Under the pieces are notes generated by a model, which was not told the origin of the DNA, searched no databases, and saw only the letters and a program-made list of their open reading frames with translations. The translations under genes were made by a program, and so were the position numbers. A stretch of DNA of 64,000 bases from Metabacillus sediminilitoris (GTDB taxonomy: Bacteria; Bacillota; Bacilli; Bacillales; Bacillaceae): assembly GCF_009720625.1 (NCBI RefSeq), contig NZ_CP046266.1:3481501-3545500 (forward strand), read 5' to 3'. Shown piece after piece: positions 5,529-41,711 of this stretch. The stretch's first letter is position 1. Every line of letters starts with the position of its first letter.

Positions 5529-6701
5529 CTATAAACAGAAAATATGTTTTCCGATACGTTTAATTTGTGGTCTACCCCAAATCCATGAACTAGTTGCTGT
5601 ATTTGGGTTAAAATAATATGTTGCACCTTCAGTTGGATCAAATCCATTTATCGCATCTAATACAGCTTTCTTAGCCTGTTCATTAGGTGTTAGCCAGATT
5701 TGTCCATCCGCTACTGCTGTAAAAGCTCGTGGCTCAAAGATAACTCCTGCAACCGTATTTGGGAATGTTGCACTTCCTACACGATTGAGTATGACTGCCG
5801 CTACTGCTACTTGACCGATATACGGTTCACCCCTTGCTTCACCATATACAGCATTAGCCATTAATTGAATATCATTTTGAGAATAGCCATTTGGTAAATT
5901 AACCGCCGTTGTTGTTTGTTGTTCTTGTTTTTGCTGTTCTTGTTGTTTTTGTTGCTGCTGTTGTGGTTGCGCCTGTTGCTGCTGTTGCTGTTGTTTTTGT
6001 TGTCGCTGCTGTTGCTGCTGCTGTTCCTGTTGTTTTTGTTGTTGCTGCTGTTGCTGCTGCTGTTCCTGTTGTTTTTGTTGTTGCTGCTGTTGCTGCTGCT
6101 GTTCCTGTTGTTTTTGTTGTTGCTGCTGTTGCTGCTGTTGCTGCTTCTGTTCCTGTTGTTTTTGTTGTTGCTGTTGTTGCTGTTCCTGTTGTTTTTGTTG
6201 TTGCTGTTGTTGAGTAACCTGAGACTTATAGGTTTGCTCCTGTTGCTGTTTTCTTTGTTCTGCAATTTGTTTTGCTCTTTGAATTTGTTGTGCAGTTGGA
6301 GCAGTTTGTTGGGCTAATGGTATCCCACCGTAGTGTGTAAACCGTTTGCCGCTATTTATTTGCTTATATACGAAATCTTTATAAAATTTAGTAGATCTTT
6401 GCAGCATATCTTTCGTTTTTTGCCCTACTAATCCATCAATTTCTTCTAATTCAAACATGTGTTGAAAGTTTCTAACAGCCCAATACGTACTCCAACCATA
6501 TACTCCGTCAATTGTTCCATGGTAATACCCGTTATATTGAAGTCTTGCTTGCAATTCAATAACATCACTACCAGTTGCACCTTTTTGGATAATCTGATTT
6601 GAAAAAGCATGTGCTACAGGGACATTTATTGAAGAAATTTGTAAGGTGACAGAAGTAAAAGTCACTACTGCAACCATCAACATTATGCGCATGTTTTTCA
6701 T
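5529..6701 (-). CDS. sleB: Spore cortex-lytic enzyme SleB with an expanded glutamine-rich linker
   Basis: SleB cleaves cortex peptidoglycan during germination as a lytic transglycosylase. The order is a signal peptide (about 1-32), a peptidoglycan-binding domain (about 38-100, with SDVIELQARLQYNGYY and DGVYGWSTYWAVRNFQ), a linker, and the hydrolase_2 catalytic domain (about 269-390) with the catalytic Glu at about 288 in AVYGEARGE. Typical SleB has about 300 residues; this one has 390 because residues about 151-265 are almost entirely Gln with Lys and Glu. The DNA there (about 5905-6250) carries 39-bp tandem units. AGGAGG precedes the ATG. It is co-transcribed with ypeB. Confidence 0.93.
   Translation of the reverse strand: MKNMRIMLMVAVVTFTSVTLQISSINVPVAHAFSNQIIQKGATGSDVIELQARLQYNGYYHGTIDGVYGWSTYWAVRNFQHMFELEEIDGLVGQKTKDMLQRSTKFYKDFVYKQINSGKRFTHYGGIPLAQQTAPTAQQIQRAKQIAEQRKQQQEQTYKSQVTQQQQQQKQQEQQQQQQQKQQEQKQQQQQQQQQQKQQEQQQQQQQQQKQQEQQQQQQQQQKQQEQQQQQQRQQKQQQQQQQAQPQQQQQKQQEQQKQEQQTTTAVNLPNGYSQNDIQLMANAVYGEARGEPYIGQVAVAAVILNRVGSATFPNTVAGVIFEPRAFTAVADGQIWLTPNEQAKKAVLDAINGFDPTEGATYYFNPNTATSSWIWGRPQIKRIGKHIFCL
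5905..6250. repeat. CTG/TTG-rich tandem repeat tract within sleB
   Basis: The tract is made of CTG, TTG and CTT triplets. The marker TTCCTG recurs at 6024, 6063 and 6102 (39-bp spacing), then at 6150 and 6183. On the coding strand it encodes runs of Gln punctuated by KQQE. Such arrays are prone to slippage in multiples of three. The long Leu- and Val-rich frames on the other strand are by-products. Confidence 0.9.
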
Positions 6702-8810: not shown

Positions 8811-8842
8811 AAAGTGAGAAATAACAATTTATCTCTCACTTT
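8811..8842. terminator. Bidirectional terminator between asparaginase gene and ypdA
   Basis: A 14-bp stem with one mismatch pairs 8811-8824 with 8829-8842. T-rich sequence follows on the plus strand and a run of A precedes it, so it can serve both converging genes. It overlaps the last codons of ypdA. Confidence 0.85.
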
Positions 8843-9798
8843 CTTTTTTTGATTTCCTCGTTTATTAGTTGACCATGAAAGCGTCCATTTTCAATAAATA
8901 TTTCATTCGCATTATTTCCAGCTGCAATTACCCCTGCAATAAAAATCCCTTCAATATTCGTTTCCATCGTATCTGGATTATATGTCGGTCGACCTGTTTC
9001 AGAATCTATATTGACACCCATTTTCTTTAAGAAACCATGATCCGGATGATAGCCTGTCATTGCAAACACAAAATCATTTTTTATTTCTTTTACTTCTCCC
9101 TTAACTTCATATATGAGAGTATTTTCTTTTATTTCAATAACATTTGCTTGAAATTCCATCATGATTGTTTCATTTCGAACAAGTGCTTCGAATTCTGGTA
9201 AAATCCATGGTTTTATACTAGGTGAATATTCTGTTCCTCGATACAATACCGTTACTCTTGCTCCTGATTTCACAAGTTCTAACGCCGCATCAACACTTGA
9301 ATTTTTCCCACCAATTACTACTACATCTTTGTTAAAGTATGGATGTCCTTCTTTAAAATAATGATATACCTTTGACTGTTCCTCACCTGGGATCTTCATA
9401 TAATTAGGATGATCATAGTATCCAGTTGCAATAACTATTTGTTTTGCCTCATATACTTGTTTATCAGTTTTAACAATAAATACATTTCCTTTTTTCTCTA
9501 CTTGTTCCACTTCCTCAAAAGAATGAACACGAATATTTTTTCTGCGAACAACTTCACGGTAATAAGCCAGTGCTTGATTTCTAAATGGCTTACGATTTTC
9601 TATAATAAATGGTACATCTCCAATTTCTAGCTTTTCACTTGAACTAAAGAAAGTTTGATGTGTGGGATAATTGTAAATTGCATTGACAATATTCCCTTTT
9701 TCGATAACTAATGGTTTTTTTCCTGTTTCTTCTAATGCAATTGCTGCTGACAATCCACATGGACCTCCACCAACAATGATGGTATCTTCTATTATCAC
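8836..9798 (-). CDS. ypdA: Bacillithiol disulfide reductase YpdA (FAD/NADPH oxidoreductase)
   Basis: The 320-residue flavoprotein resembles YpdA, which reduces bacillithiol disulfide with NADPH in firmicutes. The FAD motif IIVGGGPCGLSAA is at residues 7-19, with the Cys typical of the family. The NADPH-binding VVVIGGKNSSVDAALEL lies in the middle, and AMTGYHPDH and GIFIAGVIAAGNNANEIFIE near the C-terminus. The start chosen is GTG (MIIEDTII), preceded by GGGAGTGG. A 14-residue longer reading would begin inside the adjacent repeat element and has no homologous counterpart. The element at 9826-10051 stands 28 bases upstream, so the native promoter has been displaced or replaced. Confidence 0.92.
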   Translation of the reverse strand: MIIEDTIIVGGGPCGLSAAIALEETGKKPLVIEKGNIVNAIYNYPTHQTFFSSSEKLEIGDVPFIIENRKPFRNQALAYYREVVRRKNIRVHSFEEVEQVEKKGNVFIVKTDKQVYEAKQIVIATGYYDHPNYMKIPGEEQSKVYHYFKEGHPYFNKDVVVIGGKNSSVDAALELVKSGARVTVLYRGTEYSPSIKPWILPEFEALVRNETIMMEFQANVIEIKENTLIYEVKGEVKEIKNDFVFAMTGYHPDHGFLKKMGVNIDSETGRPTYNPDTMETNIEGIFIAGVIAAGNNANEIFIENGRFHGQLINEEIKKRK

Positions 9799-9825
9799 GA
9801 ATTTTCCACTCCCGGTTATAAATAA

Positions 9826-10051
9826 AGGCTGTTTTCGCAAACTTTGTTGCTATTTACAAGTCGTGCGGTGCCGTTGATTGCAGCGAGAGGATGCTCGCTT
9901 TTTAGCGGGGCGGGCTGTAAGCCTCCTCGGTGTTAACGCCTGCAAGAGTCTCATTTGTCCCGCTGCTCTAAGCAGGAGTCTCGCAATCTGCTCCAATCAA
10001 CTTTAAAATACTTTTCGTGTTAAAAGCAACAATCACTTAGAAAAGAGCCTA
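9826..10051. mobile_element. MITE-like element, copy A (226 bp)
   Basis: This non-coding element ends in imperfect 25-bp inverted repeats: 9826-9850 begins AGGCTGTTTTCGC and 10027-10051 ends GAAAAGAGCCT, and both inner ends read TTGTTGC. It is flanked by the direct repeat AAATAA (9820-9825 and 10052-10057). Inside are a second inverted layer starting TTGATTGCAGC and the GC-rich block GCGGGGCGGGC. Copy B is at 13507-13729. The core resembles an intergenic repeat I remember as common in Bacillaceae; its name is not certain. No transposase is encoded. Confidence 0.85.
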
Positions 10052-10117
10052 AATAAAATTATTATTTCTACATGTTATCTTTTCACCCTCTAGGTTTGAG
10101 GTAGAATAGTCAAAAAT

Positions 10118-10153
10118 AAAAAATCCCCTATCGATTATGATAAGAGATTTTTT
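10118..10153 (-). terminator. Intrinsic terminator after gudB
   Basis: AAAAAATC-containing 10118-10132 pairs imperfectly with GATAAGAGATTTTTT (10139-10153). The minus-strand transcript continues into TTTTTTATTTTTG. Confidence 0.65.
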
Positions 10154-10175
10154 ACTGCGTTGCAAATTGAAAACC

Positions 10176-11447
10176 TTAGATCCAGCCTCTGAATCTTGAA
10201 GCTTCAGCCATTTTACGAACGCCTACCATATAGGCAGCTAGACGCATATCTATTCGTCTGTTTTGGCTTGTTTCATAAATATTGTTAAATGATTTAACCA
10301 TTACTTTTTCAAGTTTTTCTTCAACTTCTTCTTCTGTCCAATAATATCCTTGATTATTTTGTACCCATTCAAAGTATGAAACAGTTACGCCTCCAGCGCT
10401 TGCCAATACATCTGGCACTAAGAGAATTCCTCTTTCAGATAAAATTCTGGTACCTTCAAGTGTAGTTGGACCATTAGCAGCTTCTACAACAATGCTTGCC
10501 TTAATATTTGCTGCATTTTCTTCAGTAATCTGATTTTCAATTGCTGCAGGAACAAGAATATCACATTCAAGTTCAAGCAATTCTTTGTTTGTTATTGTAT
10601 CATTAAAAAGTTTCGTAACAGTACCAAAGCTATCACGACGATCTAATAAATAATCTATATCTAAGCCATTCGGATCATATAATCCACCATATGCATCGGA
10701 AATTCCAACAATTATTGCTCCAGCATCATGCATAAATTTTGATAGAAAACTACCTGCATTACCGAATCCTTGTACAACCACTTTTGCACCTTTTAAGTTG
10801 ATGCCTCTTTTCTTTGCAGCTTCACGAATACAGATTGTAACCCCTTTTGCAGTAGCAGATTCACGTCCATGTGAACCACCTAGTACAAGTGGTTTACCTG
10901 TGATAAAACCTGGAGAATTGAATTCATCTATTCGGCTATACTCATCCATCATCCATGCCATAATTTGTGAGTTTGTAAAAACGTCTGGAGCTGGGATATC
11001 TTTTGTAGGTCCAACGATTTGACTTATCGCACGAACATAGCCACGACTTAAACGTTCTAACTCCCTAAATGACATATCTCTAGGGTCACAAACGATTCCG
11101 CCTTTACCTCCTCCATAAGGAAGATCTACGATTCCACATTTTAAACTCATCCATATGGACAATGCCTTTACTTCAGTTTCAGTTACATTCGGATGGAATC
11201 TGATACCGCCTTTTGTTGGTCCAACCGCATCATTATGTTGCGCACGATAACCAGTAAAGATTTTTACAGAACCATCATCCATGCGTACAGGAATTTTCAC
11301 AGTCATTAATCTAATTGGTTCTTTTAAAAGTTCAAATACTTCTTCTGGATACCCTAATTTTTCAAGAGCATTATGTATCACCGTTTGTGTAGATTTCAAC
11401 ACATCTAAATTATTATTTTTAGCATCGGTGCTTTTTTCGGCAACCAT
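10176..11447 (-). CDS. gudB: NAD-specific glutamate dehydrogenase (GudB/RocG type)
   Basis: The 423-residue catabolic enzyme oxidatively deaminates glutamate to 2-oxoglutarate. The glutamate-binding and catalytic region GPTKGGIRFHP, then LPYGGGKGGIVCDP with the catalytic lysine, lies near residues 75-125. The Rossmann fold shows VVQGFGNAGSF, and the C-terminus SYFEWVQNNQGYYW. At the site where B. subtilis 168 GudB carries a 9-bp duplication (a repeated VKA) that inactivates it, this protein reads ETEVKALSIW with a single VKA, so it should be active. The neighbours ypdA and mecB support gudB over rocG. AGGAGG precedes the ATG. Confidence 0.92.
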   Translation of the reverse strand: MVAEKSTDAKNNNLDVLKSTQTVIHNALEKLGYPEEVFELLKEPIRLMTVKIPVRMDDGSVKIFTGYRAQHNDAVGPTKGGIRFHPNVTETEVKALSIWMSLKCGIVDLPYGGGKGGIVCDPRDMSFRELERLSRGYVRAISQIVGPTKDIPAPDVFTNSQIMAWMMDEYSRIDEFNSPGFITGKPLVLGGSHGRESATAKGVTICIREAAKKRGINLKGAKVVVQGFGNAGSFLSKFMHDAGAIIVGISDAYGGLYDPNGLDIDYLLDRRDSFGTVTKLFNDTITNKELLELECDILVPAAIENQITEENAANIKASIVVEAANGPTTLEGTRILSERGILLVPDVLASAGGVTVSYFEWVQNNQGYYWTEEEVEEKLEKVMVKSFNNIYETSQNRRIDMRLAAYMVGVRKMAEASRFRGWI

Positions 11448-11649
11448 TTAAGCTAACCTCCTAAATCATATCTAAAAATATAATATAAAACCCTTTCATG
11501 ACATAGTATACACCTTAAAAATATTTATGCAAAGAAGAAAAACTTTAATTGTTTCAATTATATAAACAATTATACACTTGATATATTTCAATGCTTTTTC
11601 ACATTATTATTTAGTATTTGTCTTGCATCTTTTTTTAAACAATAAAAAA

Positions 11650-11672
11650 CGGTATACATATCATATATACCG
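11650..11672 (-). terminator. Intrinsic terminator after mecB
   Basis: CGGTATA (11650-11656) pairs with TATACCG (11666-11672), followed on the minus strand by a run of six T. Confidence 0.75.
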
Positions 11673-11712
11673 CTTTTAATAGAAATTAAACATGTTATAC
11701 TTTAAACCATTA

Positions 11713-12303
11713 TTATTTAGGACCAAAATATTTAAAGATTTCTTGGATTGCTTTATCTTCCATAAGGATTTTCCCATATTCTTTTAATCTATGGACTGTT
11801 AAAGTTGATGGGCTGCCATACTCTGCTAATACTGCAACTAAATTGTCAAGTTCAACCTGTTGATCATCACTTAAAAGCAAATAATAGCGTTCTTGATAGA
11901 AAATGAGCATCCCTTCGTAAACATGTTGTTGATGAAGACAATTTGATAGTTGAATGATATCTTCAAATGTTTCAAATTCATAGATGACATCAATGTTTTC
12001 ATCCAATTTCACTTGCATTTCAATATAATCATCAGAAAAATCATCATCTATTTCAGCTGGTTCATTACTATTAGTTACAATCACTACCATCCCTTGAGCA
12101 TGAAGCGAATACACTTCGACAGCAATTGGACCATGCGCCTCAAAGCCCAATTCTGCGCTTGCTTCATTCATCATGTCTCTAAATAATTGGTGTACCTTTA
12201 ATGAATCTTTCCAGAGATCTTCTTTTGTAAGCCCTCTGTCTTTTAAATCATCAGTTGTTAAGAAAATTTTTATTTTGTCATAGTTCAGTCGCTCTAGCCG
12301 CAT
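11713..12303 (-). CDS. mecB: MecA-family ClpC adaptor protein (MecB/YpbH)
   Basis: The protein has 196 residues. The N-terminal substrate-binding domain begins MRLERLNYDKIKIFLT and includes LKDRGLTKEDLW. An acidic linker around residues 85-100 (EIDDDFSDDY) leads to a C-terminal ClpC-binding domain with YYLLLSDDQQVELDNLVAVLAEYGSPS. MecA-type adaptors load substrates on ClpCP; YpbH is the second B. subtilis paralogue. The gudB neighbourhood supports mecB rather than mecA. GGAGG lies 7 bases before the chosen ATG; the ten-residue longer reading starts within the ribosome site region. Confidence 0.9.
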   Translation of the reverse strand: MRLERLNYDKIKIFLTTDDLKDRGLTKEDLWKDSLKVHQLFRDMMNEASAELGFEAHGPIAVEVYSLHAQGMVVIVTNSNEPAEIDDDFSDDYIEMQVKLDENIDVIYEFETFEDIIQLSNCLHQQHVYEGMLIFYQERYYLLLSDDQQVELDNLVAVLAEYGSPSTLTVHRLKEYGKILMEDKAIQEIFKYFGPK

Positions 12304-12427
12304 CCCATACCCTCCTGCCGTCAGAACGCTCAATATACAATCATAGTATGATTTTTATATGAGATGGTTCTAATATTTTTTACAGTTTACACTCAAAACA
12401 GCAATAAGACAAGCAATGTGAATAATA

Positions 12428-13342
12428 TTAATGGACTAATTTATCTTTCATCCATCTTTGCCACTGCTGCTTCGTTTCACCTACCAAATAATCTTCATAA
12501 GGTGAATTCATTGAACTTAATACTTGACTAAATCCGGCACCATAAAGCCCAATTTTTACATTTTGATATTTTAATGTTAAATGGTCAACAAGTTCAAACG
12601 TTTTTATTACATTTTCACCTAATGTACACGATAAAAATAAAAACGCTGGCTTTACTTGATTTAGAATATGATCAAATTCATGATTTGCAATACTTGCCCC
12701 TATGTATAGCACGTCAAAACTGTTTCTTCGCAAAAAAATTGAAAATATGAGTAATTCAAGCTCTGATGAATCATTAGGACCACAAACAGCAATTGCTTTT
12801 GGTAACAATCTATTTACAGGTATAGAATGAAAAATGTAGCCTAAACGTGAACGAAAAAAAGAATATAAAAAATGTTCTTGTGCAGATGTTATTCTTCCTA
12901 AGTCCCGTTGTTCCTTCACTTTCATTAGTATAGTTCCAATTATCTCTATAACAACTTTTTCAACAGAATAAAGACTAAACGCCTCATTTAACCTTTCATT
13001 TGAATCGTATTCATCAAAAGCTAACAAGGATTTTATAAGTTTGTCCATGAGTTGCAATGATTGGTCAATGTCTTTATTTTTATGTATTTCATGATTACCC
13101 ACTATTATTTCATTGTTTTCTAACAGATTAACTGCTTGACTAATTGTAAAACCATTATCAACTTTCTTGATCAGCCATTTTAAAATGTTAATATGTTCCT
13201 CTGTATATAAACGATGACCTGCTTCATTTCTTTTTGGTGCAATCACATGATATCTTCGCTCCCACGCCCTTAAGGTTCCAGACTGTATCCCTAGCAATTT
13301 TGAAACAGCCTTAATATTGTATTTACCTTCCTGAATAGACAT
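12428..13342 (-). CDS. MerR-family regulator with a degenerate B12-binding domain
   Basis: The 304-residue protein has an N-terminal MerR winged helix (residues 8-75: YNIKAVSKLLGIQSGTLRAW, then ERRY and GHRLYTEEH), a helical middle and a C-terminal Rossmann-like domain resembling CarH/LitR photoreceptor regulators. The helical-bundle signature AQEH (154-157) is kept. The cobalamin motif expected as P-x-E-x-H-x-L-G reads PNDSSELE (189-196), with Ser in place of the Co-ligating His and Glu in place of Gly. It therefore probably does not bind B12 through His, and may sense something else or act constitutively. It is not part of the B. subtilis ypbH-ypbG interval I remember. Targets are unknown. 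Confidence 0.82.
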   Translation of the reverse strand: MSIQEGKYNIKAVSKLLGIQSGTLRAWERRYHVIAPKRNEAGHRLYTEEHINILKWLIKKVDNGFTISQAVNLLENNEIIVGNHEIHKNKDIDQSLQLMDKLIKSLLAFDEYDSNERLNEAFSLYSVEKVVIEIIGTILMKVKEQRDLGRITSAQEHFLYSFFRSRLGYIFHSIPVNRLLPKAIAVCGPNDSSELELLIFSIFLRRNSFDVLYIGASIANHEFDHILNQVKPAFLFLSCTLGENVIKTFELVDHLTLKYQNVKIGLYGAGFSQVLSSMNSPYEDYLVGETKQQWQRWMKDKLVH

Positions 13343-13506
13343 CTTGATCCCCCAATAATGAAAAAACTACACTATCAAAAATTATAACGAATCCTTTTAT
13401 TTGTGTAAAATTTGTATTTTAAAAAAGGAAAACTTCGAGTTACTGTATGGAATAAAACATTTTCATCACGTAATTGAAGAGCGGGTTTTAATTGAGTTTT
13501 TTGTAA

Positions 13507-13729
13507 AGGCTGTTTTCGCATACTTTGTTGCTTTTTACCAAGTAATGCGGTGTGGTTGATTGCAGCGAGAGATGCTCGCTTTTTAGCGGGGCGGGCGGTG
13601 AGCCTCCTCGGCGTAAACGCCTGCATGAGTCTCTCCTGTCCCGCTGCTCTAAGCAGGAGTCTAGCAATCTGCTCCAATCAACCTAAAATAGTTTTCGTTT
13701 TAAAAAAAGAATCTCTTATAAAAGATCCT
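13507..13729. mobile_element. MITE-like element, copy B (223 bp)
   Basis: This second copy of the element at 9826-10051 is very similar over its whole length, in the same orientation. It starts AGGCTGTTTTCGCATAC and ends AAAAGATCCT. It is flanked by a perfect 6-bp duplication, TTGTAA (13501-13506 and 13730-13735), different in sequence from the AAATAA around copy A. This fits independent insertion. It occupies the gap between ypbG and the MerR gene, about 165 bases upstream of the latter. Short open frames inside it are not genes. Confidence 0.87.
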
Positions 13730-13758
13730 TTGTAAAAGAATTCAGTCAAAAATAAATA

Positions 13759-20359: not shown

Positions 20360-20421
20360 ATTTTTATGCAAGTTTAAATAAACGTTTAAAACTGTTTCTT
20401 TTTAAACGCGTGAACCTCCAT

Positions 20422-20548
20422 CTTCTCTCATCCAGACTATACTGTCGGTTCTGGAATTCCACCAGATCCTGCCCAAAACAATAGGCTCGCGGACTTAGAA
20501 AAAAAATTTCATCACCGCCGGTCGGGAATTTCGCCCTGCCCCGAAGAT
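20422..20548 (-). promoter_or_regulatory. FMN riboswitch (RFN element) controlling fmnP
   Basis: On the minus strand the conserved RFN blocks are present: CTTCGGGGCAGGG, ACCGGCGGTGAT, AGTCCGCGAGC, GGTGGAATTCC and GGATGAGAGAAG. FMN binding should favour the downstream terminator and shut off riboflavin uptake. Confidence 0.95.
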
Positions 20549-20645
20549 TGATCATATTATTTAATTTTTGATACACACTAAATTATATAATGCAATAACA
20601 ATTTTGTATACAATAAAGTCTCGAATCCAATGCTTTAAAGTTTCA

Positions 20646-41395: not shown

Positions 41396-41490
41396 TGTAT
41401 ATAAGAAATTGATATTTGAGTATGTCAAATAAGAGTATTAAAAGTCTAATTTTTAAACAGAATTTTAATACACCGCAAAAACCGCGCAAT

Positions 41491-41630
41491 TCTTCTCCCA
41501 TCCAGACTATAACTGTCGGTTCTAGATTTTCACTAGATCCACCGTTAACATTGTTAACGGGTCACGGACTAAGAAACAAAATAAATGCTTCATCACCGCC
41601 GGTAGGGATTTTCACCCTGCCCCGAAGAAT
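41491..41630 (-). promoter_or_regulatory. FMN riboswitch controlling the riboflavin operon
   Basis: RFN blocks on the minus strand are TTCTTCGGGGCAGGG, ACCGGCGGTGATG, AGTCCGTGACCC, GGTGGATCTAGTG and GGATGGGAGAAG. It resembles the fmnP aptamer but has a longer variable arm (GTTAAC/GTTAAC). It acts through the terminator at 41371-41395. Confidence 0.95.
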
Positions 41631-41711
41631 GTAAATCGAAATATGAAGTTATAAATGTATTTTAGCCGTTTAAAGTGAAAGATGCAATATTTTAGACCTA
41701 ATTGAAAATAT

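Follow-up and report, generated by a model that had tools for sequence, protein, structure and literature searches.

Insertion sequences (ISs) of the IS1595 family (Siguier et al. 2009, as cited in PMC8101967 and PMC3129680), as far as the accessible portions of the published accounts describe them, usually generate 8-bp target duplications and have a DDE_Tnp_IS1595 domain and, with the exception of IS1016, a zinc-finger domain (PMC8101967); the 8-bp repeats flanking one member, ISApl4, are A/T-rich (PMC12561309). Passenger genes are known in ISs in general, and transporter ISs have been described (PMC3129680). Here we describe a repeat that occurs twice in a 64-kb stretch of the Metabacillus sediminilitoris chromosome (the window, positions 3481501-3545500 of a single-contig 5.60-Mb genome). 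The repeats are copies of a dispersed, non-autonomous family of miniature inverted-repeat transposable elements (MITEs) of about 220 bp, whose ends are very probably bound by an IS1595-family transposase that would move the element and leave an 8-bp duplication. Like bcr1 of the Bacillus cereus group and Bacillus stem-loop families such as Bhal-1, as characterized in the accessible part of PMC2267715, it is a dispersed structured repeat of a Bacillus lineage. A MITE family with IS1595-type ends is new here, although the kind of element is already known; a literature search that covered few subscription papers returned no description of IS1595-type MITEs of Bacillus or of the present repeat.

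Bounds, ends and fold of the window copies

The features of the two copies, with positions counted within the window, are as follows.

9819..9826, no strand: left 8-bp target duplication of copy 1, TAAATAAA (from the sequence; 8/8 match)
9827..10049, plus strand: MITE copy 1, 223 bp, with left end GGCTGTTTTCGCAAACTTTGTTGC and inward-reading right end GGCTCTTTTCTAAGTGATTGTTGC (from the sequence, copy comparison and end pairing)
10050..10057, no strand: right 8-bp target duplication of copy 1, TAAATAAA (from the sequence and end pairing)
13500..13507, no strand: left 8-bp target duplication of copy 2, TTTGTAAA (from the sequence and end pairing)
13508..13728, plus strand: MITE copy 2, 221 bp, left end intact, right end decayed (from the sequence, copy comparison and end pairing)
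13562..13687, plus strand: GC-rich structured core of copy 2, recurrent across the order (from order-wide matches)
13729..13736, no strand: right 8-bp target duplication of copy 2, TTTGTAAA (from the sequence and end pairing)

A first-pass annotation of the window had recognized two similar elements at these places, and we find them to be 88% identical. It had also described imperfect inverted termini, and the ends are indeed imperfectly inverted (17/24 positions paired in copy 1), but they lie at GGCT...AGCC rather than at AGG...CCT, and the right end of copy 2 has decayed to GATCC. Three occurrences of the end pattern GGCTSTTTTC...TTGTTGC are found in the window against 0.01 expected; the decayed right end of copy 2 is not matched by this pattern at 3 mismatches. 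In an alignment of 30 copies the direct repeats adjoin GGCT and AGCC, and the duplications of the window copies are therefore TAAATAAA and TTTGTAAA, 8 bp each. The first-pass annotation was thus right that direct repeats flank each copy, but its figure of 6 bp arose because it started the element at AGG...CCT.

With a length of 221-223 bp and terminal inverted repeats, the copies fall below the size of a transposase gene, so that, as the annotation had proposed, a transposase from elsewhere is needed; two listed frames of at least 80 aa, 8836-9840 and 13375-13677, cross copy edges. The interior is strongly structured, again as proposed, in that copy 2 folds as DNA (z -3.5) and copy 1 as RNA (z -2.1) more stably than shuffled sequences. 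Comparison with the whole genome by blastn, in which 40 of 147 first-look candidates were scored, gave at least 42 matches, 40 of them at least 190 bp long and 2 of them short fragments. Plasmid and phage collections, which may lack records close to the window's genome, contained no match to the element.

We note that copy 1 lies about 20 bp upstream of the start, set by the longest frame, of an oxidoreductase gene that is presumably ypdA-like. A promoter-like site (10086-10058, minus strand) is found on the side of copy 1 away from this gene (region 9799-10086), and because copy 1 lies between the two it may be part of that leader.

Duplications, target and filled sites

We paired ends that matched at 17/24 positions or more, lay 80-420 bp apart and had first four bases at most 1 mismatch from GGCT, and removed duplicates. 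This gave 107 paired elements, 70 in this genome, 19 and 13 in two relatives (G001 and G012, respectively) and 5 in others. An 8-bp duplication matching at 7-8 of 8 positions flanks 60/70, 16/19, 11/13 and 4/5 of these, respectively, which bears out the expectation that other copies in this genome would also be flanked by duplications. In the first three genomes pooled, 87/102 elements have such a duplication, whereas 500 shuffles of the flanks averaged 4.4 and never gave more than 10; the fraction is not a genome-wide estimate since loci fetched by similarity to the query favour well-preserved copies. Duplication lengths of 4-7 and 9-12 gave near-shuffled values in the same 102 elements, and at length 6 just 7/102 reach a match of at least 5 bases, against 5.5 on average after shuffling. 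The family thus has duplications of constant length at different sites, and the sites themselves share a preference: among the 87 elements, T at positions -3, -1 and 0 and A at +7, +8 and +10 each occur in 71-80%, position -2 is C or T in 85%, and the six centre positions are A/T-rich. The resulting consensus, T-Y-T/TWWWWWWA/A-R-A, is AT-rich and palindrome-like, and 81/87 elements are intergenic by simple frame calls. Pairwise identity among 38 copies of 215-228 bp in this genome has a median of 0.877 and a maximum of 0.973, indicating that most copies are not very recent.

We also considered whether the T-tracts of intrinsic terminators provide the insertion rule. Such insertions account for 11/87 elements and for 58/1441 AT-matched intergenic controls from the same loci (Fisher p 0.0013), but the controls were matched for nothing beyond A+T count, and both the score and the threshold for hairpins were ad hoc. 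Enrichment ranged from 1.9 to 3.2 fold over five thresholds, the p value belonging to the strictest, and we regard this rule as weak.

Insertion can be seen directly by comparing congeners, within which the gene neighbourhood of the window copies is conserved. Both flanks of site 1 were recovered in 20 relatives, none of which has copy 1, and both flanks of site 2 in 9 relatives, none of which has copy 2. At site 1, one relative (G006) carries another family member, 202 bp long and flanked on either side by TAAGTTAA, and a further relative (G002) has the uninterrupted counterpart of this insertion; at site 2, the insertion in G001 is an independent one bordered left and right by TATCATTA, and G012 is empty there. 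These two pairs of filled and empty orthologous sites show insertion directly. Upstream of the same gene at site 1, 47 bp of G012 (L099) match the right end of the G006 element at 83% identity and are likely what remains of such an end of a family member; G002 and G007 gave weak short matches alone (E 0.003-0.004) in AT-rich DNA. Thus the orthologous sites examined lack the window copies, and a few carry other insertions of the family or a remnant. The intergenic DNA of most relatives is too diverged for base-wise alignment, so the absence of copies 1 and 2 is read from missing sequence, not from an intact pre-insertion site. The earlier view that the element is MITE-like and that real transposition had occurred is upheld by the 8-bp duplications at different sites and by the two filled/empty pairs.

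IS1595 elements with the same ends

A search of 397 genomes of the order for the end pattern, allowing at most 1 mismatch, found it in 194 genomes and 78/136 genera, with 464 matches in one genome (G109); the pattern read backwards had 0 matches among the rows listed. Some opposite ends lie 1.6-1.9 kb apart, and in the two such pairs tested (L313, L333) they enclose a transposase with the PF12762 (DDE_Tnp_IS1595) domain, that of L333 scoring 5.8e-18 against PF12762 and 8.3e-64 against the NCBIfam IS1595 model; both match NF033547. For L333 and L313, the scores for the zinc ribbon PF12760, whose cut-off is 25.4 bits, were 23.8 and 23.9, and those for the NCBIfam IS1/IS1595 zinc domain, with a cut-off of 28, were 51.4 and 51.1. 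Within the genus, where 8/21 genomes have PF12762, G016 contains two 1698-bp IS1595 copies (L333, L341) with duplications TTTAAAAA and TTTACATA, 8/8 each, G018 a 1969-bp copy (L338; duplication 7/8, transposase with masked bases) and G008 a decayed 1200-bp copy (L346; 8/8); outside the genus, L313, L314 and L315 have such ends and duplications matching at 8/8 each. A scan of named genomes for related transposases, in which the best 80 of 194 relatives correspond to 79 distinct loci, gave 58 loci with some end pair and 45 that passed limits on both ends and duplication (7-8/8), 42 of these at 8/8. The 45 are not all independent, as L372 and L373 share site sequence and L416 and L417 nearly do, and they include loci from Metabacillus, Peribacillus, Neobacillus, Niallia, Sporosarcina, Cohnella and Paenibacillus species. 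Their 8-bp duplications and ends starting with GG (a minority start with CG or AG) are those of the IS1595 family.

The MITE therefore resembles this family, as its accessible descriptions present it (PMC8101967, PMC3129680), in ends that begin with GG and in AT-rich 8-bp duplications, and the full-length elements bounded in this way carry an IS1595 transposase gene; it differs in having no transposase and in that, beyond the ends, there is no long blastn match in L313, L314, L315, L333, L338 or L346. We also count the AT-rich target consensus in favour of an IS1595 origin, given the repeats reported for ISApl4 in the accessible part of that account (PMC12561309). Under this explanation, an IS1595-family transposase made by a full-length element would bind the GGCTSTTTTC...TTGTTGC ends and move the MITE, inserting it at a staggered cut whose target is palindrome-like and AT-rich, and gap filling would then leave the 8-bp duplication. 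We infer that the transposase acts on the MITE ends in trans and that a source element was once present and has been lost from this lineage.

Several observations weigh against this explanation. In the pooled set, 15/102 elements have no 7-8/8 duplication, although one of them, L098, was mis-paired and has 8/8 when the outer end is used. PF12762 has no match in this genome, G001 or G012, where the MITE is abundant, so that the mobiliser is not seen beside the MITE; for this genome the search rests on a loose first look with 2 candidates scored, and a very diverged copy could be missed. Recognizable paired ends were found at 4/16 genus PF12762 loci and no pair at the other 12, several positions distinguish the 24-bp ends of the MITE from those of the nearest full-length elements, 34/79 named loci failed the end or duplication limits, and 11/45 passing loci have no long transposase frame by the frame rule used. 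The search for a transposase with the same termini, which the first-pass annotation had suggested, thus found it in relatives but not in this genome, where the MITEs look orphaned and are probably relics of the activity of a since-lost element. Among 11 unpaired ends listed in this genome, no transposase was seen by eye in the frames of L046, L060, L143 and L156, where no family search was run.

Two other accounts of how the copies arose were weighed. That the two window copies stem from duplication of one locus rather than from transposition might be suggested by their spacing of 3.5 kb and shared orientation, but they have different 8-bp duplications and different flanks, no shared sequence beyond the element in the aligned 30-base flanks, and 70 paired counterparts across the genome among the loci examined, and we consider this account almost inconceivable. 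The other account is mobilization by an ISL3-family transposase. ISL3 ends often start with GGCTCTT, and ISL3 elements of the genus and order make AT-rich 8-bp duplications such as GTTTTTTT and TTTTTTTT, so that the ends and duplication length first suggested this candidate. PF01610, however, has no match in this genome and is found in 3/21 in the genus, and the MITE ends, present on IS1595 elements, are absent from all ISL3 elements inspected (genus L089-L096, family L127-L132, order L213-L242, L243-L262 and L263-L282, several of which repeat one element), which are part of the matches listed in 147/397 genomes. At L255 the similarity to ISL3 breaks off 120 bp before the end, and at L217/L243 the ends bound a neighbouring element that has no transposase. 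We have ruled out this candidate on the elements inspected, and an ISL3 mobiliser is very unlikely.

The full-length IS1595 elements themselves carry additional frames. Beyond the transposase, 43/45 passing elements (among L349-L427) have a second open frame of at least 60 aa, on the opposite strand in 37/43, and blastp sorted the 43 into 36 clusters, i.e. the frame is different in nearly every element. Because the longest frame per element was taken, some may be spurious; in the 11/45 lacking a long transposase frame, the boundary was set at a fixed position. Among 20 frames scanned, 12 exceeded a Pfam cut-off, with acetyltransferase, calcineurin-like phosphoesterase, HAD and DinB-related domains among them. 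An extra small frame is a feature shared with transporter ISs as the accessible part of PMC3129680 presents them, but here it differs in nearly every element.

Further observations concern individual elements. One small extra frame was also noticed in L313, L314, L333 and L338. As judged by eye, most of the IS1595 transposases inspected (L352, L356, L366 and others) have H where the third acidic catalytic residue would be expected. In G109, L318 (336-1282) is a 947-bp element that shares these ends, lacks a transposase and contains an RDD-family gene, its flanking 8-mers matching at 6/8. In G001, L098 (3246-3500) shows the right end of an insertion followed by a second partial copy of the same end and then the duplication.

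The GC-rich core and its wider distribution

The core had been taken for a widespread repeat, and with the inner 126 bp of copy 2 as query it has matches in 189/397 genomes of the order and 60/136 genera (two places scored per genome). Among the 29 top loci outside this genome, which as best matches are a biased sample, 9 have paired ends and a 7-8/8 duplication (two of these, L430 and L445, with one poor end), 5 have one good end and 15 have neither. In G377 the core lies inside a 566-bp repeat with different ends (L467, L461, L464, L479 and others), and the end pattern has no match in that genome; identity to one copy is 91-97% for six others and 75-81% for two more. In G134 the core similarity stops near GTTGATT and AATCAAC. 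At most 10 loci per genome were compared in G377 and G134. It is conceivable, though we hold it only tentatively, that the core is a portable structured module taken up independently by different Bacillales mobile repeats, lying within IS1595-type ends here, within other ends in the 566-bp repeat of G377, and between the stated limits of similarity in G134. Comparison of the core with Bhal-1 and other families in the accessible part of PMC2267715 was by description only, and a relation is possible; the title on bcr1 presents that repeat as specific to the B. cereus group.

A different explanation is that the element persists because its structured core has a function, as a hairpin in RNA or DNA that acts on nearby genes, mobility being just how it spread. 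The occurrence of the core in nearly half of the genomes of the order, its strong predicted hairpin and the possible position of copy 1 in the oxidoreductase leader would fit such a role, but compensatory change is seen in just 2/26 predicted pairs, Rfam has no match to the element, and relatives lack the window copies at both sites. Moreover, of 12 copies of 87-154 bp in this genome that lack most of the core, 9 keep the ends and a 7-8/8 duplication, so that the core is not needed for end recognition, unless it was lost after insertion. Retention for such a function therefore seems improbable to us.

Elsewhere in the window we noticed two FMN riboswitches (20416-20552 and 41486-41633, minus strand), a MerR-type regulator with weak matches to a B12-binding domain (12428-13342, minus strand) and, by eye, a frame with a long glutamine-rich repeat mid-way (5529-6701, minus strand).

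With this identification, an intergenic repeat of the Bacillaceae that had no name becomes a mobile element whose ends, duplication length, target preference and transposase family are known, and this makes a test of mobilization in trans simple. The identification also reveals an orphan MITE population, with 70 paired copies among the loci examined, in a genome that gave no match to the transposase family, and exposes both IS1595 elements whose small genes are nearly all different and a conserved core common to repeats with different ends. If the core is indeed a portable module, transposable elements would carry it as a passenger or for host tolerance, and it would not be the by-product of a single MITE.

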